This document shows, piece after piece, positions 50,407-62,512 of a stretch of DNA of 64,000 nucleotides. This DNA comes from Mucilaginibacter sp. L196. GTDB taxonomy: Bacteria; Bacteroidota; Bacteroidia; Sphingobacteriales; Sphingobacteriaceae. Position 1 is the first letter of the stretch. Each line of letters opens with the position of its first letter. The notes below the pieces were generated by a model, which was given only the letters and a program-made list of their open reading frames with translations, did not search any database and was not told the DNA's origin. Both the position numbers and the translations under genes were made by a program. The stretch is taken from contig NZ_LMUO01000019.1 in the NCBI RefSeq assembly GCF_009765905.1, positions 1,388,405 through 1,452,404 of the forward strand, in the 5' to 3' direction.

Positions 50407-50485
50407 TTTGTCATTCTGTGCATAGCGAAGAATCTGTAAAGTAGTTTACATCGTACAGATTCTTCGCTATGCACAGAATGACAAA
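50407..50485. repeat. REP-like palindrome with 32-bp arms, copy 2
   Basis: Arm 50407-50438 (TTTGTCATTCTGTGCATAGC...) is the exact reverse complement of 50454-50485; the loop is 15 bases. The arm differs from copy 1 (28251) only by changes made on both arms, which is compensatory variation. Confidence 0.9.
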
Positions 50486-50498
50486 TCTGTAGAGCTAT

Positions 50499-50607
50499 CG
50501 GGAGGTGCTCCTCACGTTAAGGATAGTAGCGGATACCGGCCCATAGTTAAGGCCTATGTAGTATGAGCGAATAGCCTGCCCGCTTCTATCAGCGGGAACG
50601 CCCAAAT
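50499..50607 (+). ncRNA. possible structured RNA/repeat element, copy 1
   Basis: Stems: GAGG/CCTC near 50502-50513, CATAG/CTATG (50542-50546 with 50554-50558), and CCCGCT/AGCGGG (50579-50584 with 50591-50596). Blocks CGTTAAGGAT (50515-50524), AGCCTGCCCGC and AACGCCCAAA (50597-50606) recur in the same order at 62424-62512. No ORF. It could be a small RNA family or a mobile repeat; I cannot decide. Confidence 0.4.
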
Positions 50608-50711
50608 CCACTTCTCTTGTTAAACACTCCTCCTCCATCAAAATAAAATAATCTTATCTTCATGCAACGTTCTAAAAAACGCTGTGTCTTGTTATATGAA
50701 AGCTGCAAAAT

Positions 50712-51272
50712 TTGGAATCTGTATACATTGATAAGCATTACAACCTGGTGGTTGAGTGTAAGCAGGGTAGTAAAAAAGCCTGCTACGAGCTGTACAAGTT
50801 ATATTCTAAAGCGATGTTAAACGTCGCCTTTAGGATAGTGGGCAATATTGCCGAGGCTGAAGATGTATTACAGGAATCGTTTTTAGATGCTTTTAATAAA
50901 CTGAAAGATTTTAGGCAGGAAACCACATTTGGCCTTTGGCTTAAACAAATTGTGGTAAACCGTTCCATCAATCTTTTACGGAAGCGTAAAATGGACCTGG
51001 TTGATATTGACGGCGAACAACTGGACAATATACCGGATGAAGAGTTTGAAAGTGACGAAGAAACGTTATTTAAAGTAGCACAGGTTAAGGATGCTATGAA
51101 AGAGTTGCCGGATGGTTACCGGGTGGTATTATCCTTGTATTTATTAGAGGGTTACGACCATGAAGAAATAGGGCAGGTTTTAAACATTACAGAAAACACC
51201 TCGAGAACACAGTTTTTAAGGGCAAAAAGAAAATTAGCAGAGATATTAAAAAGGAAAGGGATAACACAATGA
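50712..51272 (+). CDS. ECF-subfamily RNA polymerase sigma factor
   Basis: 186 aa from a TTG start; no in-frame ATG is near, and the frame is closed upstream. Sigma-70 region 2 (YKLYSKAMLNVAFRIVGNIAEAEDVLQESFLDAFNKL) and region 4 (LPDGYRVVLSLYLLEGYDHEEIGQVLNITENTSRTQFLRAKRKL) are clear. It directs RNA polymerase to a stress or envelope regulon, held in check by the next gene's product. Overlaps the anti-sigma gene by 4 bp (ATGA). Confidence 0.93.
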   Translation: MESVYIDKHYNLVVECKQGSKKACYELYKLYSKAMLNVAFRIVGNIAEAEDVLQESFLDAFNKLKDFRQETTFGLWLKQIVVNRSINLLRKRKMDLVDIDGEQLDNIPDEEFESDEETLFKVAQVKDAMKELPDGYRVVLSLYLLEGYDHEEIGQVLNITENTSRTQFLRAKRKLAEILKRKGITQ

Positions 51273-51823
51273 GCAAGCGATTAGAAGATTTTATCAGGGC
51301 GAACCGAGAGGAATTTGATGACCTTGAACCAAGAGCGGGCTTATGGGCGGAGATTGAAAAACAATTACCCGAAGAGCCAAAAAAGCGTGAAGCCAAAACA
51401 TTCACCATAGGCTTTGTGCTGCGTGTGGCGGCTACCGTAATATTGGTAATGGGGATAAGCTTTATAGTATTTTTAAAGAGTATAGAAAAGAGAGGTGTTG
51501 ACCTAGCGGATATTAACCCGGAATATGCCAAACAACAAATGCACTATGCATCGCTTGTGGAAACTAAGCGTACTGAGCTTAAACAAATTGCTAAAAGCGA
51601 CCCGGCTTTGTACCAGGAGTTTAGTAAGGAAATAGCGCAAATGGATTCGACTTATAAAAAACTGAATAGCGATTTAGCCAACAGCCCCAACCAGGAGCTT
51701 GTTTTGCGGGCGATGATACAGAATTTACAGATACAAACAGAGGTGCTTAACCAGCAATTGAATGCGATTGAGCAATACAACCATGATAAAAAAGATCAAA
51801 AAAATGAAACCAAAGATATTTAA
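51269..51823 (+). CDS. probable anti-sigma factor, single-pass membrane protein
   Basis: 184 aa. Cytoplasmic N-terminal 48 residues (RLEDFIRANREEFDDLEPRAGLWAEIEKQL), one membrane helix at about 49-68, and a helical, coiled-coil-rich periplasmic part. This layout and the 4-bp overlap with the sigma gene mark it as the anti-sigma factor. It has no classic zinc ZAS motif (H-x3-C-x2-C). Its 3' end overlaps the next gene. Confidence 0.82.
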   Translation: MSKRLEDFIRANREEFDDLEPRAGLWAEIEKQLPEEPKKREAKTFTIGFVLRVAATVILVMGISFIVFLKSIEKRGVDLADINPEYAKQQMHYASLVETKRTELKQIAKSDPALYQEFSKEIAQMDSTYKKLNSDLANSPNQELVLRAMIQNLQIQTEVLNQQLNAIEQYNHDKKDQKNETKDI

Positions 51824-53102
51824 TTCCGCAATTATAATAGTTGCCGCTTGCTTCGCCATAAGCTTAACAAGCCTTGCCCAAACTCCGGTTAAGGCAATCG
51901 CGCCAACAGATTCAGTAGTAGAGCCTGTTGCTCCAGCGGATATTAATGTGGAACCGGTAATTGTATCAACCAATACATCAACCACTATAAATACAAGAGT
52001 TATTAAAGTAAAGCTGCATAAGTTAAATGCACAGCTAAAAAAATTAAGCGTACAAGCCAATGCACAGGTAATGGCTGCAGTAAAAAACATCAATGTAGAT
52101 GCTGATATAGATGATATTGCCCCGCAGGTAAATGTTATTGTTAGCAATGCAGGTGTTAATACTATCACAACAACTACTACCAATGATGATGACGACAGGG
52201 TTAAAAATTATAGCAAAACCTATCCTGCTGACGCAAATGATATAATATCGATAGAAAATAAATATGGTAATGTTACAGTTAACACCTGGAACAGGAATGA
52301 GGTTAAAGTAGATGTTCAAATAAAGGTTTCGGCCGGAAGTGACGATGCCACACAGAAACTACTGGATAATGTTAACATAAGCGATGCTAAAAATGGATCG
52401 TTAATCAGCTTCAGAACGATTATAGGCGAAGTAAAAAGTTCATGGTATTCGGTATTTCAGGGTGGCTCAAGCAGGAAAATGGAGATTAACTACATTGTTT
52501 ATATGCCTGCAAAAAACGAACTGGTAATTGATAATCGTTACGGCGGCATTTATTTACCGGATCTGGACGGGAAAGTTACTATAAATAGCTCTTACGGCAG
52601 TCTTAAGGCCAGGTCATTAACCAATGAAAGCACGCTAAGAGTAAAATATGGCAATGCCAACATAGACAATTTAAACAATTCCACTATCCAGCTTTCTTAC
52701 GGTGATCTTACTGTTGGATCGGTAAATGCGCTTACGGCAGATGTAAGTTATAGCCCGGTTAAAATAGGCAAATTGCATACTTCGGCAACTATAAACTTAA
52801 GATATGGCGGTGGTTTACAAATTGGCGATCTGGATAGAACAGTAAAGAGTTTAGACATATCTTCATCCTACTCCAATATAGACATTGGTCTTAGCGGCGA
52901 CGAAAATGCCGACTTTGCGATAGTAACCCGCTACGGTGATTTTAATTACGGCGAGCATGCATTTACCGTAACCGCTAAAACACCCGATGATGGTGAAAAA
53001 GGCTTCCACTCAACCAAAAGCTATAAAGGGTATATAGGCAGAGCCAATAGTGGTAAAACGATTGCCATTAATTCGAACTATGGTAATGTGAAGTTTAATT
53101 AG
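51783..53102 (+). CDS. secreted DUF4097-like beta-repeat protein of the ECF operon
   Basis: 439 aa from the ATG at 51783; ATGs at 51762 and 51804 are also in frame, the latter giving the tightest signal peptide (PKIFNSAIIIVAACFAISLTSLAQ). After a Pro/Val-rich N-terminal part, residues from about 150 on are parallel beta repeats (ISIENKYGNVTVNTW, LVIDNRYGGIYLPDLDGKVTINSSYGSLKA, TVGSVNALTADVSYSPVKIGKL), typical of DUF4097/putative adhesin beta-helices. These often follow ECF sigma/anti-sigma pairs in Bacteroidota. Start overlaps the anti-sigma gene by 41 bp. Confidence 0.8.
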   Translation: MIKKIKKMKPKIFNSAIIIVAACFAISLTSLAQTPVKAIAPTDSVVEPVAPADINVEPVIVSTNTSTTINTRVIKVKLHKLNAQLKKLSVQANAQVMAAVKNINVDADIDDIAPQVNVIVSNAGVNTITTTTTNDDDDRVKNYSKTYPADANDIISIENKYGNVTVNTWNRNEVKVDVQIKVSAGSDDATQKLLDNVNISDAKNGSLISFRTIIGEVKSSWYSVFQGGSSRKMEINYIVYMPAKNELVIDNRYGGIYLPDLDGKVTINSSYGSLKARSLTNESTLRVKYGNANIDNLNNSTIQLSYGDLTVGSVNALTADVSYSPVKIGKLHTSATINLRYGGGLQIGDLDRTVKSLDISSSYSNIDIGLSGDENADFAIVTRYGDFNYGEHAFTVTAKTPDDGEKGFHSTKSYKGYIGRANSGKTIAINSNYGNVKFN

Positions 53103-53103
53103 A

Positions 53104-53124
53104 GAGTCAAGAATCAAGACAAAA
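53104..53124 (+). repeat. heptad array after the DUF4097-like gene
   Basis: GAGTCAA, GAATCAA, GACAAAA start two bases after the TAG stop at 53100-53102. The same heptad on the other strand (GAATCAA at 53187-53181) directly follows the TAA of the convergent rlmI-like gene. Confidence 0.65.
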
Positions 53125-53157
53125 AAGAGCCGGTAACTAATTTACCGGCTCTTTTTT
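53121..53157 (+). terminator. bidirectional intrinsic terminator
   Basis: A 16-bp perfect stem (53121-53136 with 53142-53157) with a 5-base loop, A6 on one side and T6 on the other. It serves the ECF operon and, in reverse, the rlmI-like gene. Confidence 0.9.
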
Positions 53158-53187
53158 ATAATATCTTTTTCGCAGCTATCTTGATTC

Positions 53188-54375
53188 TTACCAGACCCGG
53201 CACAATAGTCCCTTCAAATATTCTCCTTCTGGGAATGATGCCCTTACAGGATGATCTTCGGGTTGGCAAAATTGATAGATAAATTGTACCTGCTTTCCTG
53301 CATCCAGTGCAGCCCAGGCTAGTACTTGCTTAAAGGTTTCCATGTTCATGGCACCTGAGCAGGAGTAGGTGGCTAATAAGCCGCCATTGTTAAGCAATAG
53401 CATCGCTAATCTATTCAGATCTTTATAAGCACGGGATGCCCTATCTAACGCCGAGCGCGATGGGGCGTATTTAGGTGGATCAAGCACAATGATGTCAAAC
53501 TTTTCTTCCTGTTCCCTGAAAGCCCTTAATTGTTTGTTAACGTCGGATTGTATGGCGATGTGTTTTGCTGCATCGAGGTTGTTTAGCTTGATGTTTTCGC
53601 GCAGCGTCTCAATAGCTAAGGCTGAACTGTCCACACTGGTAACTGATGATGCGCCGTTGTGTAAACTGTTTAAAGTGAAACCACCGGTATAGCTAAAGCA
53701 ATCCAATACCTTTTTGCCTTTGGCGTGGCTTGCCACTATTTTACGATTATCGCGCTGATCACAGTAAAAACCTGATTTTTGGCCTTCGGCGATGTTGATG
53801 TTGTAAACGATGCCGTTTTCCTTAACTTCCACATTTTCCGGCGGACTGTTTAAAGTAAGCGCCACGTTTGAGGTTTGTAAACCTTCGTGCTCGCGCGATG
53901 AAGCGTCGCTTTTATCGAAAATGCTTTCGGGTTTTAATAGATTATTCAGTTCATCAATAATAACGGGCATTACCTTTTCAATACCCGAGGTAAGGATCTG
54001 TACAGCCAAATGGTTATTGTATTTATCTACGATTAATCCCGGCAAATAATCCGATTCGCTGAAAATCAAGCGACAGGTGTTTGTAGTACCATCTGCCAAA
54101 ATATTGGCACGGCTTTTTACAGCAACACCTACTTTCTCGCGGAACCAAGTATCATCTACCACAGTGTTCTCGTCCCATTCCAGCAAGCGTAAGGCCACGC
54201 GCGATTGATCGTTATAAAAACCATAAGCCATAAAATCGCCTTTGGCATTTAATAATTTTACAATATCACCATTTTCCGGGCTGCCCTTTACACGCTCAAT
54301 AGCGCCGGAAAACACCCATGGATGGCGCTGTAGTACCGCTTTTTCCTTACCTTTTTTAAGAATTACTTCGAACAT
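53188..54375 (-). CDS. rlmI: class I SAM-dependent 23S rRNA methyltransferase (RlmI-like)
   Basis: 395 aa. N-terminal PUA domain (KGKEKAVLQRHPWVFSGAIERV), a middle EEHEAD-like RNA-binding region, then a Rossmann methyltransferase with VLDCFSYTGGFTLNSL (SAM site), FDIIVLDPPKYAPSRSAL (DPPK catalytic motif) and LLATYSCSGAM. It probably makes 5-methylcytosine on 23S rRNA. The DPPK rather than PC motif and the PUA domain support RlmI; exact target base is inferred. It converges with the ECF operon. Confidence 0.9.
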   Translation of the reverse strand: MFEVILKKGKEKAVLQRHPWVFSGAIERVKGSPENGDIVKLLNAKGDFMAYGFYNDQSRVALRLLEWDENTVVDDTWFREKVGVAVKSRANILADGTTNTCRLIFSESDYLPGLIVDKYNNHLAVQILTSGIEKVMPVIIDELNNLLKPESIFDKSDASSREHEGLQTSNVALTLNSPPENVEVKENGIVYNINIAEGQKSGFYCDQRDNRKIVASHAKGKKVLDCFSYTGGFTLNSLHNGASSVTSVDSSALAIETLRENIKLNNLDAAKHIAIQSDVNKQLRAFREQEEKFDIIVLDPPKYAPSRSALDRASRAYKDLNRLAMLLLNNGGLLATYSCSGAMNMETFKQVLAWAALDAGKQVQFIYQFCQPEDHPVRASFPEGEYLKGLLCRVW

Positions 54376-54505
54376 TGTGCAAAGGTAAGAAAGTTTGTAA
54401 CTATCATTTCACTGGTTTATCGTCTCGTGTAACTCCAATTTTACTCAACTAAAAATCAATAAATTATATCTTTTTGTAGATTTATACTAACCAATTTCTA
54501 TCCGC

Positions 54506-55219
54506 ATGAAGAAGATAGTTTTGCTGCTTTTTTTATTAACAGCAGCGGGAGGATCATTTGCACAGCTTGCCGCTAACGACTCTATTAAAAACGTTTTTGT
54601 TCTATCACTCGGAGCGCATCAAACATTTATGAACAACCCCGGCTTTAACAACTGGACATTAACAAACTATCACAGAAAAATAAATAACCCCATAAATATC
54701 GAAGGCGACCTTACTTTCTTTATAAAAACCTATGATGTGGGGCTTCAGTATAGTGCAAATTCATTTGCGTTTACCACAGCGCACCTGGGCCTGCAATTAA
54801 CGACGGCACAAAGCAGGCTGTCATCATGGGTAGATTTTGATTTTGGCCAGTTATACATTAAACGGACAGATATGGCACCAATCGATTATACGCCAACACC
54901 CGACCAACAAGGTAAAAAGTTAAAGCTGGAATATAGTTCGTATTATATTGGCTTAACCAGTAAAAACTATCTTAACAATTTGCATTTTCATTTCGGCAAG
55001 CATAAAAAAACATCGTTTAACGCTGGGTTCTATTTAAGCGCAGGTTATGATCCGTTTAACGACCGGCAATGGACTTATGGATACAATGATAATGCGCATA
55101 CTACCATTAATAGCGATGGCACTACAACCGTTCCATATAAAAGTGTAACTATTAATAGCATCCCGCCGCTGAACCGCTTTTTTATGGAAGCCGGTATATT
55201 TGCAGGAATAGGGAATTAG
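54506..55219 (+). CDS. exported hypothetical protein, probable outer-membrane beta barrel
   Basis: 237 aa. Signal peptide at 1-19 (GGSFA-Q). The mature part has regularly alternating strands with many Tyr, Phe and Trp residues (YDVGLQYSANSFAFTTAHLGLQLTT, SSWVDFDFGQLYIKRT), typical of small barrels such as Bacteroidota outer-membrane proteins. No named family is recognised. It is a single gene divergent from the rlmI-like gene and convergent with nrdJ. Confidence 0.72.
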   Translation: MKKIVLLLFLLTAAGGSFAQLAANDSIKNVFVLSLGAHQTFMNNPGFNNWTLTNYHRKINNPINIEGDLTFFIKTYDVGLQYSANSFAFTTAHLGLQLTTAQSRLSSWVDFDFGQLYIKRTDMAPIDYTPTPDQQGKKLKLEYSSYYIGLTSKNYLNNLHFHFGKHKKTSFNAGFYLSAGYDPFNDRQWTYGYNDNAHTTINSDGTTTVPYKSVTINSIPPLNRFFMEAGIFAGIGN

Positions 55220-55230
55220 ATCATCTTCAC

Positions 55231-55266
55231 AAAAAAGCCCTGCTCCGATGGCAACCGGGCAGGGCT
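55231..55266 (-). terminator. intrinsic terminator of nrdJ
   Basis: AGCCCTGC/GCAGGGCT arms (55236-55243 with 55259-55266), followed on the minus strand by T6 (complement of 55231-55236). It fits termination of the minus-strand nrdJ transcript. Confidence 0.8.
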
Positions 55267-55341
55267 CAAATAATTAACATATAAACTGAACACTATATCC
55301 AGGTGGTTGAGAACCTGAATATTAGTTGTATAAATTCGTGA

Positions 55342-58300
55342 TTAACTGCAACCCATAGAGTTACCGCAGTTTAAACATTTGTAGCAGGTACCCGATCTTA
55401 TCGTAGTATGTCCGCAAACATTACAACTCGGCGCATCGCTTTGTACACCCATGCTTAGATCCACTGTCATGGCTTGTTTTTTGGTTACGCCACTATCGTT
55501 TTTTACCGGGGCATAAACGTTGGTTTCATCAGGGTTAACATCGCTATCCTGCATTTGAGGATTACCGGTTACCGCGTTTTGCTCGGTAATTATATGTACC
55601 AGATCGGTGCGGTTTTGGTATTCGTAGCCTAATAGTCTGAATATAAAGTCGATGATTGATGTTGAGCTTTTAATATTCGGGTGCCCCATCACCATACCTG
55701 CCGGTTCAAAGCGAGTAAAGGTGAATTTTTCCACATATTCTTCTAAAGGAACACCGTATTGCAGACCTACTGATACCGCGATAGCGAAGCAGTTCATCAA
55801 CGAGCGGAAGGTCGCGCCCTCTTTGTGCATATCCACAAATATTTCGCCTAAAGTTCCGTCCTCATATTCACCTGTGCGAACAAACACCGTTTGGCCGTCA
55901 ATAGTTGCTTTTTGGGTAAATCCACGGCGTTTGTATGGCAGGCTCTTCTTTTGTACCACGCGAGATAGCTGGCGCATAAAGCTGGTGTCTTTTGAGCGCT
56001 CCATAATGGCCATGGCGGCTTCTAATACTTGCTCGGGCGTTAAGTCGCTTAGTTTTACATTAGCAGCTTCTCCTAAAACTTCTTCAACGGTATCCAGCTT
56101 TTCTTCGGCTTCTTCTTTAGCGTCGGATTTGGTAGATAATGGCTGTGATAATTTACAACCATCACGGTAAAGTGCATTGGCCTTTAAGCCTAATTGCCAT
56201 GATAATTCGTAACAATCTTTTATCTCATCAACCTTAGCCTCATTTGGCAAATTGATTGTTTTTGAGATAGCGCCTGACAAAAACGGCTGTGCAGCTGCCA
56301 TCATTTTAATGTGGCCATGTGCGTGGATATAACGCTCGCCTTTTGCACCGCATTTATTGGCGCAATCGAATATCGGATAATGTTCTTCTTTTAAATATGG
56401 GGCGCCTTCAAGCGTCATCGTGCCGCAGATATACTCATTGGCTTCGTTGATCTGTTTGCGGCTAAAGCCTAAAGTACGCAGTACGTTAAAGTCAGGTGCA
56501 TTGTATTGCTCGGCAGTGATACCTAAGCGTTTTAAGCATTCTTCGCCGAGGCTCCAGATGTTGAACGCGAAGCTAATCTCGAATGCGGAAACTAATCCTT
56601 TATCTAATTTCTCTAACTCATCTTGGGTAAAGCCTTTTGCTTTTAGGGTATCTACGTTAATGTGCGGAGCTCCTGCTAAGGTAGCTGCTCCTTTGGCGTA
56701 ATTTACAATAGCCTTAACTTCATGATCCTGGTAGCCCAGGTTGCTTAAGGCCTCAGGAACTGCCTGGTTAATAATCTTGAAGTAACCACCACCTGATAGC
56801 TTTTTAAATTTCACTAAAGCAAAGTCAGGCTCGATACCGGTAGTATCGCAATCCATTACCAAACCAATGGTGCCGGTTGGCGCAATAACGGTGGTTTGGG
56901 CATTGCGGTAACCATACTGTTCGCCCATTTCAACTGCTTTGTCCCACGCATTGCAAGCGGCAGAAAGCAGGTAATCCGGACATTGTTTTTGATCGATTCC
57001 CGGAGGGAAAATTTCTAAGCCTTCGTAGTTTCCGGTAGAGTTATATGCAGCGTAACGGTGATTGCGCATTACACGCAGCATATGTTGCTTATTATTTTTG
57101 TATTCGCTAAATGCGCCTAACTCACGTGCCATCTCGGCGGATGCTGCATAGGCAGTACCAGTCATGATCGCGGTGATAGCGCCGCCAATTGCGCGGGCTT
57201 TATCGCTATCGTATGGGATACCGTTCACCATTAAGGCAGAACCTAAGTTGGCGTAGCCTAAACCAAGGGTGCGGTAATCGTAGGACAGCTGAGCAACTTC
57301 TTTTGAAGGGAATTGTGCCATCAAAACAGATATTTCCAGAACGATGGTCCAGATACGGCAAGTGTGTTCAAAACCCTTTACATCAAACGCACGTGTTTTT
57401 GGATCGAAGTAATGTGCCAGGTTGATGGATGCTAAATTACAAGCCGTATTATCCAGGAACATATATTCTGAGCAAGGATTTGAGGCATTGATTCGGCCGC
57501 CTTCGGGGCAGGTATGCCACTCGTTGATGGTGCTATCATATTGCACACCCGGATCGGCGCAAGCCCATGCCGCGAAAGCGATATCATCCCATAATTTTTG
57601 TGAAGAGATAGATTTGATAGGTTTGCCAGTCATTCGGCTGGTCAACTCCCAATTTTTGCCTTCTTTCAAGGCATTGAAGAAACTGTTGGGTATACGAACC
57701 GAGTTGTTTGAGTTTTGACCGGATACGGTGCGATAAGCCTCGCCTTCATAATCCGAAGAATAGCCTGCTGCTATTAATGCGGCTACTTTTTTCTCTTCTT
57801 CAACCTTCCAATTTACAAAACCTTCAATTTCCGGGTGATCAAGATCAAGACAAACCATTTTGGCTGCGCGACGGGTAGTTCCGCCTGATTTGATTGCTCC
57901 GGCTGCCCTGTCGCCTATTTTAAGGAACGACATTAAGCCTGATGAGTAACCACCACCTGAAAGTTTTTCGCTCTCGCCACGGATTTTGGAGAAGTTGGTG
58001 CCAACCCCTGAACCATATTTAAAGATGCGCGCTTCACGAACCCAAAGATCCATAATGCCGCCTTCGTTCACTAAATCATCATCCACTGATAAAATAAAAC
58101 AAGCATGTGGCTGCGGGCGTTCGTAGGCTGAAGTCGATTTGCTTAACTTTTCGGTAATTGGATCAACATAATAGTGGCCCTGTGGTTTGCCGGTGATGCC
58201 ATAAGAGCTATGTAAGCCTGTATTGAACCATTGCGGTGAGTTTGGTGCTGCCAGCTGACCGGTTATAGTATATACTATTTCGTCATAAAATATATCAGCA

Positions 58301-58659
58301 TCTTTTTGCGATGCGAAGTAACCGTAGCGTGAGCCCCAGTCCTTCCAGCAATTAGCCATGCGGTGGGCCACCTGCTTAATGCTATTTTCTGACCCGGTTG
58401 TACCATCGGCTTGCGGCACCATAGCTTTGCGAAAATATTTTTGAGCAAGGATATCGGTAGCTACCTGCGACCATGCGGCGGGCACCTCAACATTATTCAT
58501 TTCGAACACCGCATCACCGGAAGGGTTGCGGATTACCGACGAGCGTTTCTCATATTTGAACAGGTCAAACACGTTTACTCCATCTTTGGTGAAGTATCTA
58601 TCAACCTTTAATCCTTTTCCGCCAGTGCCTGGTGTTTTCTTTGATATTTTGCTGCCCAT
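55342..58659 (-). CDS. nrdJ: vitamin B12-dependent (class II) ribonucleotide reductase
   Basis: 1105 aa. Class II RNR catalytic core with Cys187 (PHACFIL), GSGVGTNFSKIRGE, the thiyl-radical site NPCSE (394-398) and APTGTIGLVMDCDTTGIEPD. The C-terminal extension has MSCNVCGH-type zinc Cys clusters (CNVCGHTTIRSGTCYKCLNCG) and ends CS. It makes deoxyribonucleotides using adenosylcobalamin and needs no oxygen. No B12 riboswitch is visible upstream; instead DnaA-box-like sequences are found. It is a single gene. Confidence 0.95.
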   Translation of the reverse strand: MGSKISKKTPGTGGKGLKVDRYFTKDGVNVFDLFKYEKRSSVIRNPSGDAVFEMNNVEVPAAWSQVATDILAQKYFRKAMVPQADGTTGSENSIKQVAHRMANCWKDWGSRYGYFASQKDADIFYDEIVYTITGQLAAPNSPQWFNTGLHSSYGITGKPQGHYYVDPITEKLSKSTSAYERPQPHACFILSVDDDLVNEGGIMDLWVREARIFKYGSGVGTNFSKIRGESEKLSGGGYSSGLMSFLKIGDRAAGAIKSGGTTRRAAKMVCLDLDHPEIEGFVNWKVEEEKKVAALIAAGYSSDYEGEAYRTVSGQNSNNSVRIPNSFFNALKEGKNWELTSRMTGKPIKSISSQKLWDDIAFAAWACADPGVQYDSTINEWHTCPEGGRINASNPCSEYMFLDNTACNLASINLAHYFDPKTRAFDVKGFEHTCRIWTIVLEISVLMAQFPSKEVAQLSYDYRTLGLGYANLGSALMVNGIPYDSDKARAIGGAITAIMTGTAYAASAEMARELGAFSEYKNNKQHMLRVMRNHRYAAYNSTGNYEGLEIFPPGIDQKQCPDYLLSAACNAWDKAVEMGEQYGYRNAQTTVIAPTGTIGLVMDCDTTGIEPDFALVKFKKLSGGGYFKIINQAVPEALSNLGYQDHEVKAIVNYAKGAATLAGAPHINVDTLKAKGFTQDELEKLDKGLVSAFEISFAFNIWSLGEECLKRLGITAEQYNAPDFNVLRTLGFSRKQINEANEYICGTMTLEGAPYLKEEHYPIFDCANKCGAKGERYIHAHGHIKMMAAAQPFLSGAISKTINLPNEAKVDEIKDCYELSWQLGLKANALYRDGCKLSQPLSTKSDAKEEAEEKLDTVEEVLGEAANVKLSDLTPEQVLEAAMAIMERSKDTSFMRQLSRVVQKKSLPYKRRGFTQKATIDGQTVFVRTGEYEDGTLGEIFVDMHKEGATFRSLMNCFAIAVSVGLQYGVPLEEYVEKFTFTRFEPAGMVMGHPNIKSSTSIIDFIFRLLGYEYQNRTDLVHIITEQNAVTGNPQMQDSDVNPDETNVYAPVKNDSGVTKKQAMTVDLSMGVQSDAPSCNVCGHTTIRSGTCYKCLNCGNSMGCS

Positions 58660-59134
58660 TTTCGTATTGAATTATAGTGAGTTGGCCGGCTAAAAGATTT
58701 TAGAGGCCGTTACTCAAATCTATTATTCTCAAAAGCAGAATTCTATTTTGAGTTTTCAACACCCTGTGGGTAAAGTACCTTGATTTCGTATTCAGTTTTG
58801 CAGAATGCTTGTTTACAGGAATTTAACGCTGTTGATAACTTAAATTAACGCGTTTTTGGGGTGCTTTTTTGGGCCTTGTCTGTGCGGAGGCACATGTTTT
58901 TTTCTCTGGTATAGCTGCGCTAAGCATTAGATTAAATGTAACGAAGCCTCGCGAGTTTTTGTGATTACACTTATGAATGTTATTGCCTTAATCTTATCTT
59001 CTATTTCAGGAATTTATAAGAATATTTTGATCTCATATCGGATAATATATTAAAAAGACCGGGCAATATTGTATAAATTAATAGTTAAATATGGCTTTAT
59101 CTTTAGGCTAATTATAAACCATAATCTCAATAAT
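58660..59134. other. 475-bp intergenic region upstream of nrdJ
   Basis: No gene is supported. It holds three DnaA-box-like sequences (58753-58838) near the nrdJ promoter side and a small hairpin TGTGC/GCACA followed by T7 near 58880-58905 that resembles a weak terminator with nothing upstream. The rest is AT-rich leader for the gene at 59135. Confidence 0.5.
58753..58838. promoter_or_regulatory. three DnaA-box-like sequences upstream of nrdJ
   Basis: TTTTCAACA at 58753-58761, TGTGGGTAA at 58765-58773 (complement TTACCCACA, one change from TTATCCACA), and TGTTGATAA at 58830-58838 (complement TTATCAACA, one change). The first two are inverted around CCC. They lie 94-180 bp upstream of the nrdJ start. 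Confidence 0.35.
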
Positions 59135-59725
59135 ATGAAAACCTTTAAACCCGTTTTGCCATTGGCAATGTTGTTGTGTATTTTTACTTTTAACACATCA
59201 AAAGCAATTGACCCAGGCAATAAGCAGCCGCTTGCCAAACAAAACCAAACGCTCTTTTCGGCAATGAAATACTTTCCGCTAAAACATTTACATCATTTAT
59301 CAACGGGGAAATTAACAGTTGTAAAAGCTCTCAACCCAAAATTGCAGTCAAACAAAAGTAATGCGGTAAACTATGTCCGGGTTTACCTTCAGGAGCCCTC
59401 TTACCAGTCTGAGGAGTATTCGGTTAGCATATCTAACGGATCCAACAATTACACATTCGACACGGCTGAATTTCAAAGAGGTCCAGATGGCAATTATGAT
59501 TTCGGTTATATAGCGCCGGGTGTTTACACCATTGACATTTCTGTTGAAGGAGACGAATGGTGGTTTGGTGCAGATATTAATTTTAATGATTCAAATAACA
59601 ATACCGTAGATGAGACTGTAGACGAAGTTTCCATGCCTGCCAATGATATTGTTTACTATAACCAGGATATTGGTGATGTGGTAGGCAATTTTTTAACCAT
59701 ATCTATGTGGAAAGATGAAGAATAA
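59135..59725 (+). CDS. secreted hypothetical protein
   Basis: 196 aa from the ATG at 59135, which opens a signal peptide (KTFKPVLPLAMLLCIFTFNTSKA); an upstream TTG-initiated extension to 59069 is rejected. After a linker, residues about 70-170 form a small beta domain (VNYVRVYLQEPSYQSEEYSVSI, YDFGYIAPGVYTIDISVEG) of SpaA/CarboxypepD-like type, with an acidic, Asn-rich tail. Function unknown. A terminator follows. Confidence 0.7.
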   Translation: MKTFKPVLPLAMLLCIFTFNTSKAIDPGNKQPLAKQNQTLFSAMKYFPLKHLHHLSTGKLTVVKALNPKLQSNKSNAVNYVRVYLQEPSYQSEEYSVSISNGSNNYTFDTAEFQRGPDGNYDFGYIAPGVYTIDISVEGDEWWFGADINFNDSNNNTVDETVDEVSMPANDIVYYNQDIGDVVGNFLTISMWKDEE

Positions 59726-59771
59726 AACGTATTACAATTAAAAAACATGCTGGCAACAAACCGGTCAGGGT

Positions 59772-59797
59772 CCGAAGATTATTCTTCCGGCTTTTTT
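59772..59797 (+). terminator. intrinsic terminator
   Basis: CCGAAGA (59772-59778) pairs with TCTTCCGG (59783-59790) with one bulged base, followed by CT6. It ends the 59135 gene. Confidence 0.7.
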
Positions 59798-59815
59798 GTT
59801 TCAATTTTAGCGTAC

Positions 59816-59849
59816 AAAAAAGCCTGCATGTTTTACATGCAGGCTTTTT
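59816..59849. terminator. bidirectional intrinsic terminator
   Basis: Arms 59816-59831 and 59835-59849 (AAGCCTGCATG type) form a 15-bp stem with a 3-base loop, flanked by A-run and T-run. It sits between convergent genes and would also end the bacilliredoxin transcript. Confidence 0.88.
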
Positions 59850-59868
59850 GATATTTCTTTTAAAATAC

Positions 59869-60279
59869 TTAGCAATATTGCTCAAACGCGCCAATCAGGT
59901 TATCAGCGATCATTTGTGCCGGGCGGCCTTCAATCTGGTGGCGCTCGATGATGTGTACTAATTTACCATCTTTAAACAAAGCAATAGCCGGTGATGACGG
60001 AGGGTAAGGCAACATGTAGTTACGTGCAGCGTTTACGGCTTCGGTTTCCATACCTGCGAATACAGTAACGAATTTATCAGGATGTTTTTCGCTTTGGGTA
60101 GCCATGCGTGCAGCAGGGCGGGCATTAGCTGCCGCACATCCACAAACAGAATTCACCATAACTAATACGGTTCCTTCGCTTTCAATAGCTTTTTTTACTG
60201 ACGCTGAATCCTTTAACTCCTCAAAACCTACAGTGGTTAATTCGGCCCGCATGGGGGCAACTAAATATTCTGGGTACAT
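59869..60279 (-). CDS. BrxA/BrxB-family bacilliredoxin (YphP/YqiW-like)
   Basis: 136 aa, usual length. Thioredoxin-like fold with the family CGC motif: NSVCGCAAANARPAARMA (Cys46, Cys48). C-terminal HIIERHQIEGRPAQMIADNLIGAFEQYC. Members remove bacillithiol from proteins or act as thiol-disulphide switches; many Bacteroidota make bacillithiol. Single gene. Confidence 0.92.
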   Translation of the reverse strand: MYPEYLVAPMRAELTTVGFEELKDSASVKKAIESEGTVLVMVNSVCGCAAANARPAARMATQSEKHPDKFVTVFAGMETEAVNAARNYMLPYPPSSPAIALFKDGKLVHIIERHQIEGRPAQMIADNLIGAFEQYC

Positions 60280-60497
60280 TTTTATCTAATTAAATTGATT
60301 ACAAAAATAATAAATGATTAGCAGTTAACACCCAAAAAACCGAATATTAACACTTTACTGACGCAATAAAGACTTGTTACGACAGTTATTATGTCACGTT
60401 TAAACAAACATTACGTCTTTTACGTACAAGCCGGTGCATTACAACGGGTTGGTTTATTTAAGCTGATTATTTATATTGCAATCCCTAATTAATAAAA

Positions 60498-61373
60498 ATG
60501 AAATTTAAACCCTCCGGTATAAGTACGGTAATAATTGTGGATAAAACCAAAGGGGCGTCCAAAACATTACAGGTAAAAACCAAACATATTAGCCGTTTAA
60601 AGCATTATGTGGCAAGCGTACTGGGCTTAATAGTGATACTTTCGGGCACTATTTTTTACTTAAACAGACAAAACAAACAGCAAGAAATAGAAAAGGCACA
60701 ATTGCAGGCCCAGATAATAAAACTTAAAAATGCAATTCCTCCACCAGCCCCGGCTGTGAATGCTCCAAGCCAAAACAAAGCACAAACTTATATACAGGAA
60801 ATTGAGGGCAAGCTGCAAACTATAAACTCTTATTTAAAGAAACGTGGTCTGCGTGGTTTTTCGACCAAAGCGGTTGGTGGCAATGGCGGCGAAGAAGATG
60901 CCAGCAAACTTACTGATGAAGAAAAATACTCGTTATATGATGATTATTTGAGTCGTTTTTTAACTGCTGTGGCTTTTACACCGATGGGTTATCCGCGCAT
61001 TAGTTCATTAACATCATACTTTGGCTACCGGAGCGATCCATTTGATGGCGGCCATGCAGAGTTTCATCCCGGGATTGATTTTAAAGGTGAACGCGGCGAC
61101 GCGGCTAAATGCACCGCTAATGGCAGGGTTGTTTTTGCCGGATGGTTTGGCGGTTATGGCAATTGCGTACGCATTCAGCATAAAAACAACTTCGAAACTT
61201 TATATGGCCACCTTTCGCGCATTACCGTAAAAGTTGGGCAGGAAGTTACCGCGGGTGAAAAAATTGGCGAAATTGGCTCAACCGGGCGGTCAACAGGCAA
61301 TCACCTGCATTACGAGGTACGCAAAAATGGCAAGCCTGTAAATCCTATCAGTTACTTATCATTAAACAACTAA
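60498..61373 (+). CDS. membrane-anchored M23 peptidoglycan endopeptidase
   Basis: 291 aa. Cytoplasmic N-terminus, one membrane helix at about 38-56, a coiled coil (57-76), a linker, and a LytM/M23 domain from about 180: ligands His190 and Asp194 in HPGIDFKG, and HLHYE with His269 and His271. All zinc-binding and catalytic positions are present. It cuts cross-bridge peptides in the wall. The bactofilin gene starts 14 bp downstream; M23/bactofilin pairs shape cells in other bacteria. Confidence 0.93.
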   Translation: MKFKPSGISTVIIVDKTKGASKTLQVKTKHISRLKHYVASVLGLIVILSGTIFYLNRQNKQQEIEKAQLQAQIIKLKNAIPPPAPAVNAPSQNKAQTYIQEIEGKLQTINSYLKKRGLRGFSTKAVGGNGGEEDASKLTDEEKYSLYDDYLSRFLTAVAFTPMGYPRISSLTSYFGYRSDPFDGGHAEFHPGIDFKGERGDAAKCTANGRVVFAGWFGGYGNCVRIQHKNNFETLYGHLSRITVKVGQEVTAGEKIGEIGSTGRSTGNHLHYEVRKNGKPVNPISYLSLNN

Positions 61374-61386
61374 CAAACAATATACC

Positions 61387-61803
61387 ATGTCACTTTTTAA
61401 AAAAGATAAAGTTGCCCTTGATATGCAATCCATTTCGACACTGATTAGCGAAGGCTGTATTTTGGATGGTAATTTAAAAGCACCCGATTTTGCACGCATC
61501 GACGGCCAGATAACAGGCGATGTGATGGTTGATGAAGGCTTGATATTGGGTGAAAAAGGATCGATATTGGGCAATGTAGTTACCAAGGAATTGGTAGTTT
61601 ACGGTACGATAACCGGTAACTTGCAAGTTACTTCGTTAGAAATAAGGGCAACCGGAAAAGTAACCGGCGAAATACGCACCCAAACATTACAAGTTGAAAA
61701 TGGCGCCGTGTATAACGGAAGTTTATCGATGACGCAAAATGCTAAACTGGCGCAAAGTAACCAAACGGCAAGTAAAGCAAAACCCAAATTGATAGAGGTT
61801 TAG
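61387..61803 (+). CDS. bactofilin (polymer-forming cytoskeletal protein)
   Basis: 138 aa. The central domain (about 20-115) is a right-handed beta-helix of short repeats (ISEGCILDGNLKAPDFARIDGQITGD, LGEKGSILGNVVTKELVVYG, TGNLQVTSLEIRATGKVTGEIRTQTLQVENG). Flanking tails are unstructured, as usual. It should polymerise without nucleotides and may position the M23 enzyme encoded 14 bp upstream. Its TAG overlaps the stop codon of the convergent membrane-protein gene. Confidence 0.93.
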   Translation: MSLFKKDKVALDMQSISTLISEGCILDGNLKAPDFARIDGQITGDVMVDEGLILGEKGSILGNVVTKELVVYGTITGNLQVTSLEIRATGKVTGEIRTQTLQVENGAVYNGSLSMTQNAKLAQSNQTASKAKPKLIEV

Positions 61804-62120
61804 TTGTCGCTATTACGCTCCTCTACTTTGGCACTTAGGCAAACACCATCTTTAATATCAATCAATAATACCGATATTACATTCATACCGGCTGCTGTAC
61901 CGATGGTCAGCAGCCAATCTACAAATGAAAGCCTGAAGAACAACAGGTACATGATGGTACCGTAATAGGGCGTCATGCAGATGGGGCAGCCGTATATTGG
62001 CTTGTAGAGATGCCCCTCGGGTTTTATCAGCTTTTTTATCCCTTCAAATATCATCCCCTGCCAACTGCATGCATGGATGAATAATACGATCATGGCTATG
62101 ATGAATGCGTGCTCTATCAT
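61800..62120 (-). CDS. small membrane protein with a CPICM motif
   Basis: 106 aa. Two or three hydrophobic helices (about 3-20, 54-76 and 75-92) flank YGCPICMTPYYG with two Cys. This Cys-pair motif between helices is known from DUF1360-like proteins of unknown role; I would not assign more. Convergent with the bactofilin gene and overlapping it by 4 bp. Confidence 0.7.
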   Translation of the reverse strand: MIEHAFIIAMIVLFIHACSWQGMIFEGIKKLIKPEGHLYKPIYGCPICMTPYYGTIMYLLFFRLSFVDWLLTIGTAAGMNVISVLLIDIKDGVCLSAKVEERNSDN

Positions 62121-62235
62121 GGGGTGTCGCTTGTTATGTATTGTTGTTCAATAGGACAATGATTTTTGGGGGAAAAGGTTTGAACGCACCTTGACTTTTA
62201 GGATTTATGAGATTTTTAGGATGATTTTGAATGCA

Positions 62236-62300
62236 GAGTTGACTCACCCGGTCATTGCTTCGCTCGACCACCCTCTCTTCGCCTGCGGCGGAAAGAGGGT
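62236..62300 (+). repeat. dispersed GC-rich palindromic element, copy 3
   Basis: GAGTTGACTCACCCGGTC, then CCACCCTCTCTTCGCC and a closing GGCGGAAAGAGGGT hairpin. Same family as 16074 and 45274; forms a large inverted pair with copy 4 at 62357-62420. Confidence 0.78.
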
Positions 62301-62356
62301 AGGTACAATTATTAAAAGCAAATAGTATCAGTCAACATCAGTCTTCAATTTTCTTT

Positions 62357-62420
62357 CGCCCTCTTTCCGCCGTAGGCGAAGAGAGGGCCGACAAGCGGCC
62401 GAGCGATGTCGGGGTGAGTT
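62357..62420 (-). repeat. dispersed GC-rich palindromic element, copy 4 (inverted)
   Basis: Reverse complement of the family: TCGCCCTCTTTCCGCC, GGCGAAGAGAGGG, then GATGTCGGGGTGAGTT. It faces copy 3 with 56 bases between. Confidence 0.78.
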
Positions 62421-62423
62421 TCG

Positions 62424-62512
62424 CGTTAAGGATTGGAAGGGTTGAGCCAGACGGAGGAGGGGCCAGAGCTAAGCGCAGCCCTGAAAAGCCTGGGCCGCAG
62501 GCAACGCCCAAA
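62424..62512 (+). ncRNA. possible structured RNA/repeat element, copy 2
   Basis: Begins CGTTAAGGAT, has AGCCTGGGCCGC (62487-62498) and ends AACGCCCAAA (62503-62512), matching the order and spacing of the blocks at 50515-50606. GCC-rich segments can form stems. Directly follows the palindromic element copy 4. Confidence 0.4.

Follow-up and report, generated by a model that had tools for sequence, protein, structure and literature searches.

The DNA analyzed here is a 64-kb stretch of contig NZ_LMUO01000019.1 of Mucilaginibacter sp. L196 (hereafter the window, meaning the whole stretch), and a single short, dispersed intergenic element occurs in it twice, as copy 1 and copy 2; the element is a divergent branch within the Flavo-1 superfamily. 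The + strand of this element folds into a three-way junction made up of a closing stem (P1, GCGTT/AACGC), a long arm (P2-P3) and a side hairpin (P5), with P1 to P3 established by covariation and P5 mostly by conserved pairing. The outer stem and the side hairpin, which complete the junction, are new, as both are absent from the Rfam model of Flavo-1 (RF01705). We consider it slightly better than an even bet (probability about 0.55) that this divergent Flavo-1 branch, with its folding + strand, is a non-autonomous dispersed element similar to repetitive extragenic palindromic (REP) sequences.

A three-way junction shared with Flavo-1

An earlier note, made from the letters of the window alone, had described the same blocks in the same order at two places, and these blocks lie exactly where it put them: CGTTAAGGAT at 50515-50524 and 62424-62433, and AACGCCCAAA at 50597-50606 and 62503-62512. 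These are the sole exact occurrences of both words within the window, their order on the + strand is identical, and AGCCTG...CCGC stands between them in copy 1 and copy 2 alike, also as described. The extents first proposed, 92 and 89 nt, become 90 and 87 nt with refined ends (Table 1), and the statement that neither copy holds a sensible open reading frame (ORF) agrees with our listing of ORFs of at least 80 amino acids, none of which overlaps either copy. The outer frame is common to both copies, and their middles differ (GGATACCGGCC..GTATGAG in copy 1 versus AGGGTTGAGCC..CAGCCCT in copy 2).

Since single-sequence folding fails to single out the window copies (z -0.33 and 0.75 relative to shuffles, with L028 the only one of six copies folded singly to pass z -2), the case for them is a comparative one. 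Loci share the consensus GCGTTA-RGGATNGNAGCGGATACCGGCC..GGCC..GTATGAGCGGANAGCCY..(hairpin)..AACGCCC. The structure was derived from an alignment of 30 chosen copies (A1), which leaves out the partial or odd-ended L003, L015, L022, L033, L038 and L041 as well as L005 and L012: P1 pairs GCGTT with AACGC, P2 pairs RGG-A-UN with N'A-G-CCY, a 3x3 loop, P3 and the apex follow, and P5 lies between P2 and P1. In A1, 95.4% of cells pair, and two-sided changes occur in 11 pairs compared to 4.7 in shuffles (0/500 shuffles reached this number). When 98 copies from 95 loci were aligned by fitting them to the model, 97.0% of cells were paired, 18 of 22 pairs had two-sided changes (0/500 shuffles), and there were 139 two-sided cells compared to 28.9 in shuffles. 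These covarying further copies bear out the earlier suggestion of a repeat family with real stems.

Across the 98 copies, the sequence of P1 varies with compensation, and the N-N' pair of P2 is AU in 44 copies, UA in 37, GC in 11 and CG in 2. Among imperfect pairs on the + strand, G.U outnumbers A.C by 56 to 12 without the outermost pair and by 56 to 22 with it, a count in which G.U is somewhat favored by a model built on the + strand. Given this excess, we conclude that the + strand is the folded strand. The P2-P3 arm carries conserved G.A-rich internal loops and ends in an apex, P4, and since copies with a common frame have different apexes, in other families too, the apex looks exchangeable. 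We also observed a CGTCAGCTGACG hairpin that occupies the place of P5 in some copies and the apex in others (L123, L167, L180, L196 and L416), as if hairpins were swapped as units.

Flavo-1 is an RNA motif described by Weinberg et al. in 2010 (PMC2864571; here and below, statements on the literature refer to parts of the cited papers), and Rfam files RF01705 under the type "Gene; sRNA" (small RNA). It has been ranked with the most abundant sRNA families of bacteria (PMC9029176), and no function is given for it in the parts covered of PMC2864571, PMC9723704 and PMC9029176. A literature search for comparable intergenic repeats in Bacteroidetes returned nothing relevant; a table in the RepRanger paper names Flavobacterium genomes (PMC12306157, in part).

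The comparison with Rfam that the earlier note had proposed gave a divided answer: there is no match at gathering level within the window (the RF01705 cut-off is 42 bits), and the Rfam family that a canonical genus copy, L028, matches best is RF01705, at 22.5 bits (E 0.005 on 116 nt). The cmscan alignment of L028 follows the chain of helices and loops in the RF01705 consensus structure, in the same helix order. Many microRNA families matched at relaxed E-values, and these we rejected as chance hits on long palindromes. Over 41 genomes, RF01705 has matches at E<=1 in 31 and above its cut-off in 9, and over 14 control genomes the numbers are 3 and 0. In one genome (G011), matches of R1, our first model of the element, fall at the same position and on the same strand as 30 of the 33 listed RF01705 matches.

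When 27 RF01705 loci were inspected with their flanks, 16 showed, by eye, the closing stem P1 and the hairpin P5 before its 3' strand. These 16 loci, 11 of them from the genus, were joined with three genus copies, two being the window's, into alignment A6, which thus leaves out 11 of the 27 loci (7 of CTAAACC type). P1 has two-sided changes in 4/5 pairs of A6, and 85.3% of cells are paired, with three CTGTC/GACAG copies standing one column out of register. A model built from A6, R2, has matches in 47 of 296 genomes sampled from the phylum, covering 12 families, with 7 of the 47 genomes in the window's family; these counts are floors, because at most 14 candidates were scored per genome. With R2, we selected 31 copies from outside the window's family (A7), in which pairing reaches 98.6% and the inner P1 pair is UA in 14 copies, GC in 13 and AU in 2. 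Among the A7 loci scanned, 7 of 15 exceed the RF01705 cut-off at the same place, and the training loci L058 and L060 pass it too.

A covariance model built from A7 alone, R3, contains no sequence of the window's family and is the only independent test here, given that R1 and R2 include the window copies; it does favor P1, because R2, the model used to pick its training copies, includes P1. At E<=1, R3 finds the two window copies and nothing else in the window, and it finds 9 places over the genome at E<=0.01, copy 1 included. Since both window copies are found by a model whose training copies all come from other families and include at least nine above the RF01705 cut-off, we conclude that the element is homologous to Flavo-1. 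The same E-values (1.7e-7 and 7.7e-6) refute a chance resemblance of two intergenic stretches or a shared low-complexity sequence, to which we give practically no probability: the failure of both copies to fold better than shuffles would suit it, and the 15 R1 matches in the genome would not.

The window element resembles Flavo-1 in its occurrence in Bacteroidota, in the helix pattern of its inner arm (3 bp, 1x1, 2 bp, 3x3 loop, 2 bp, apex), in the core GAUNGNAG..GCGGANAGC, in its many copies in some genomes and in having no fixed gene (PMC9723704). It differs in a second internal loop that is 2x2 rather than 3x3 and in lacking the conserved apical sequence, with GGATACCGGCC..GTATGAG in place of GGAAAUC..GAUUG. 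Given this other apex, and scores below the RF01705 cut-off, we place the window copies on a divergent branch within the Flavo-1 superfamily. P1 and P5 are not described in the Rfam consensus or in the parts covered of PMC2864571 (its supplements lie outside these), PMC9723704 and PMC9029176, although Flavo-1 copies of other families carry both. The element was thus rightly called undescribed as far as its outer stem, side hairpin and score below the cut-off are concerned, but its inner hairpin has the Flavo-1 architecture, to which R3 joins it.

Gene context and strand

Gene context was taken from 164 distinct copies (A2 and A3), which include orthologs and so are not fully independent, and in which odd copies are under-sampled because the sets derive from high-scoring or pattern-matched copies. 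Copies lie in tandem gaps (67 sense and 27 antisense), in divergent gaps (28), in convergent gaps (22), at locus ends with one neighbor (12) or overlapping a called ORF (8). The tandem sense copies lie at a median of 120 nt past the stop codon and 249 nt ahead of the next start. Genes downstream are of many kinds, with 121 Pfam families in 72 of 89 genes and the commonest family in 4, and flank composition shows enrichment only of pyrimidines at -2 and -1 and of A/T at +1 to +3.

The motif TAnnTTTG, which we take to be the -7 promoter box of Bacteroidetes, is enriched downstream of the 67 tandem sense copies (34 compared to 9.2 shuffled, 0/200 shuffles) and of divergent copies (18 compared to 4.7), and it is not enriched upstream of either (7 compared to 6.5, and 3 compared to 4.2). 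Of the 67 tandem sense copies, 12 are preceded and 6 followed by a terminator-like site. Only 3 have a T-rich tract behind them, and we rejected a role as an intrinsic terminator.

These patterns make it possible that the element acts in cis as RNA, either at the 3' end of an mRNA or between two cistrons; transcription would run into it from the preceding gene, and the junction would then stop 3' exonucleases or insulate the unit that follows. Such a role would account for the sense excess and the nearness to the stop codon in Mucilaginibacter and Pedobacter tandem gaps, for promoter-like boxes downstream of the element, for orthologs that keep the fold and for the excess of G.U over A.C on the sense strand. 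It would not account for the 27 antisense tandem copies, for the 28 copies in divergent gaps, which have no 3' end, or for the terminator-like sites ahead of the 12 tandem sense copies. The strand bias is also gone outside the genus: among 70 distinct copies from other families, tandem copies split 28:24 between sense and antisense, 8 are divergent and 6 convergent, and the preceding gene ends within 40 nt in 12/34 sense and 15/30 antisense cases. This split agrees with a report on Flavobacterium psychrophilum, in which Flavo-1 hits show no distinct preference for sense or antisense and many of them fall outside transcribed regions (PMC9723704), again contrary to a 3' element.

The small RNA that the earlier note had offered as one option is not supported as an autonomous sRNA, as no promoter-like box is enriched upstream. 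A family of trans-acting sRNAs, in keeping with the Rfam label, is accordingly very unlikely in spite of the strong conserved fold: upstream flanks are unconserved, copies number in the tens with diverse sequence, and relatives have the copy-1 site without the element or with a remnant. A cis-regulatory 5' leader or riboswitch of the downstream gene is scarcely probable. For the window's type, we rejected it on the position of the promoter-like boxes, which lie on the wrong side, between element and gene, and downstream genes share no function. What speaks for a leader comes from another type of Flavo-1, type B (TAAACC..GATTG..AGCGGG), which in four genomes (L059:1501-1632 (+), L064, L070 and L071, in G002, G029, G010 and G006) lies in sense orientation immediately 5' of a peptide chain release factor gene with PCRF and RF-1 domains. 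A TAnnTTTG box precedes this type by 35-36 nt in all four, making it a candidate mRNA leader.

Orientation relative to replication was looked at only after a strand pattern had been noticed in G010. GC skew, sampled at 20 places, divides G010 and G021 into two arcs each; G011 was left out, its skew being too uneven. High-scoring copies lie on the leading strand in 38 of 52 cases (17/20 in G010 and 21/32 in G021). Where tandem genes are co-directional with replication, these high-scoring copies run with both in 19 cases and against them in 0, and where genes and replication conflict, 6 follow replication and 4 follow the genes; the ratio with versus against replication is 9:3 in divergent gaps and 4:5 in convergent ones. 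The leading-strand share, the 19:0 and the 6:4 would all be explained if Flavo-1 elements were single-strand mobile elements of a new kind, moved as a folded strand by a non-Y1 enzyme, with the + strand folding whenever it is exposed, be it as lagging-strand template or as non-template strand in transcription. We regard this explanation as doubtful.

Dispersal and persistence

Copy number is high in places. A blastn search with copy 1 finds 11 places in its own genome (5.33 Mb, 20 contigs) and matches in 10 of 21 genomes, its own included, and a plasmid search with copy 1 gave no match. R1 has matches in 24 of 25 genomes of the genus, with 0-75 each, and in 7 of 16 other genomes of the class. 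Among 80 listed of 119 stretches with the element pattern in public genomes are loci of Mucilaginibacter, Pedobacter, Sphingobacteriaceae and "Bacteroidetes bacterium". Three identical copies lie at distant places in G021, and their flanks are alike in part, so amplification can extend to a longer unit. We also observed inverted pairs of elements about 200 bp apart (L293:3001-3301, L274:3001-3294 and G021:C1:1770151-1770485, in L410), in several cases a canonical copy with a weaker, longer one.

Copies can persist where they are. The 240 distinct copies include 24 pairs with orthologous flanks on both sides and a common orientation, and 3 such pairs with opposite orientations. In the 24 pairs, mean identity is 0.879 in the element, 0.636 and 0.555 in the adjacent 80 nt and 0.506 in random 80-mers, compared to 0.769 for random pairs of elements (Mann-Whitney p 2e-10 for the element identities, with pairs overlapping in loci). 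Together with copy 1 and its ortholog, the resulting 25 pairs hold 549 paired positions, of which 499 are unchanged, 14 compensatory, 15 changed on one side and still pairing, 17 broken and 4 unpaired in both. The ortholog of copy 1 in G009 lies at the same place, with other repeats adjoining and a 20-nt hairpin added.

We inspected the copy-1 locus in 30 of the 78 genomes with a match to this site. Both genes are adjacent in 22 of them; 6 of the 22 (the window's own included) carry the element, in one orientation, and the genus profile finds no element in the other 16. In a close relative, G384, in which the first gene is not next door, only a 3' remnant is visible by eye. Since the element is missing or reduced to a remnant in relatives, a copy is retained for some time but is dispensable in the longer run.

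The nearest known likeness is to REP sequences and bacterial interspersed mosaic elements (BIMEs) with their REP-associated tyrosine transposases (RAYTs, of the Y1 type): both are dispersed, intergenic, folded and non-coding, often stand beside other palindromic repeats and sometimes form inverted pairs about 200 bp apart. REP/RAYT systems have a conserved tetranucleotide beside the stem. REP sequences are palindromes of 20-40 nt; our element, in contrast, is a three-way junction of 80-110 nt rather than a short palindrome. It resembles miniature inverted-repeat transposable elements (MITEs) in being short, without an ORF and variable in copy number. The terminal inverted repeats of MITEs have a fixed sequence, whereas P1 is a 5-bp stem that changes freely with compensation, and there is no target duplication. 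Integron attC sites, which are recognized as a folded single strand and have arms RYYYAAC..GTTRRRY, are also short imperfect palindromic structures. We rejected this identity by comparison with the attC motif: the element's outer arms, GTT..AAC, have the reverse order.

On the REP-like reading, the element would have neither gene nor promoter and would live like a REP element, spread or copied by a trans-acting factor that recognizes the folded single + strand. It would land in intergenic gaps beside unrelated genes, to be gained and lost between species, and selection at the site may keep its fold while a copy is present. In Mucilaginibacter, where most tandem-gap copies are in sense orientation between a stop codon and the next promoter-like box, the folded spacer could mark or protect the mRNA 3' end.

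A number of observations weigh against this reading. Y1 transposase counts do not track copy number (Spearman rho 0.04, p 0.82, 41 genomes; the search covered this enzyme class), and two genomes with 25 and 6 R1 matches, G033 and G039, have no PF01797 match at 1e-5; a simple REP/RAYT model was rejected on the absent link to copy number. Target duplications were not seen at k=5-10 in 155 copies (4 compared to 1.5 shuffled at k=3, and 3 compared to 1.2 at k=4). There was also no clean empty site, as 72 placements without an element proved to be repeat-to-repeat matches or flanks of ~69-95% identity lacking a usable exact junction. Retention and compensation in place exceed what is expected of a purely parasitic repeat, with decayed copies under-sampled because ortholog pairs were found through the element, and the single orientation in 6/6 elements at the copy-1 site may go back to a single old insertion followed by losses, not to repeated gains. 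The 67:27 bias of the genus hints at strand-specific use. TAnnTTTG is not enriched on either side of tandem antisense copies, nor is it around 13 tandem sense copies from other families, with 2 occurrences in 1530 nt of downstream and 1 in 1491 nt of upstream sequence. The leading-strand bias is absent from weak R1 matches (13/29) and, in G021 taken alone, is not significant (21/32, p 0.11). With respect to the place within Flavo-1, RF01705 recognizes few genus copies, with matches at E<=10 in 2 of 20 loci; copy 2 is not among the 9 genome places of R3, though its window score would qualify (150 of 1273 candidates were scored); and shuffles of A6 reach its number of two-sided pairs in 14/500 cases and its number of pair types in 126/500. 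The mobile repeat family of the earlier note finds support in the copy numbers and in presence and absence among species, and none in the form of a clean empty site, a target duplication or a transposase.

Features of the window and what the element means

Both copies stand beside another palindromic repeat, as had been noted, and the genes neighboring the two copies include an AAA_28 gene, a sigma factor gene and ahcY. Sequences similar to the inverted repeat near copy 1 occur on contigs C2, C5, C19 and C20 of the same genome and in G009, G350 and G384, and sequences similar to the palindrome near copy 2 adjoin several other copies of the element. A further dispersed palindromic repeat, with arms GTTCAGACAA / TTGTCTGAAC, is found at L180 and other loci, often directly adjoining the element.

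Table 1. Positions in the window of the two element copies, their helices and the adjoining repeats
Feature	Position	Strand	Details
Copy 1 of the element	50514..50603	+	90 nt, AAA next; R1 83.3 bits, R2 58.7 bits, R3 41.0 bits (E 1.7e-7)
Copy 1, P1 5' strand ACGTT	50514..50518	+	From alignment and P1 covariation; outermost pair A.C in copy 1
Copy 1, P2 5' strand AGGATA	50520..50525	+	Partner TAGCCT 50572-50577, one A.G mismatch
Copy 1, P3 5' strand GCGGATAC	50529..50536	+	Partner GTATGAGC 50561-50568, GG/GA internal loop
Copy 1, P5 side hairpin CCCGC(TTCTATCA)GCGGG, between P2 and P1	50579..50596	+	From sequence reading; two P5 model pairs in the covariation count
Copy 1, P1 3' strand AACGC	50597..50601	+	From alignment
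Copy 2 of the element	62423..62509	+	87 nt, frame shared, apex different; R1 50.5 bits, R2 53.5 bits, R3 34.0 bits (E 7.7e-6)
Copy 2, P1 5' strand GCGTT	62423..62427	+	Partner AACGC 62503-62507; from folding and alignment
Perfect 32-bp inverted repeat, 15-nt loop, itself dispersed	50407..50485	.	Outside the element, palindrome just before copy 1
Imperfect palindrome (87%), CACCCTCTCTTCGCC..GGCGAAGAGAGGG	62261..62397	.	Outside the element, just before copy 2

For the genus and for Flavo-1 as a whole, R3 serves to find copies that Rfam's model misses, for example in Mucilaginibacter, and the outer stem gives a concrete shape for testing what Flavo-1 does. A unit that, at least among the copies examined, is a closed three-way junction and is kept in place with compensation, and yet is dispersed, promoter-less and, outside the genus, indifferent to strand, poses a testable question, namely, whether Flavo-1 is a repeat at the level of DNA or a 3' element at the level of RNA.

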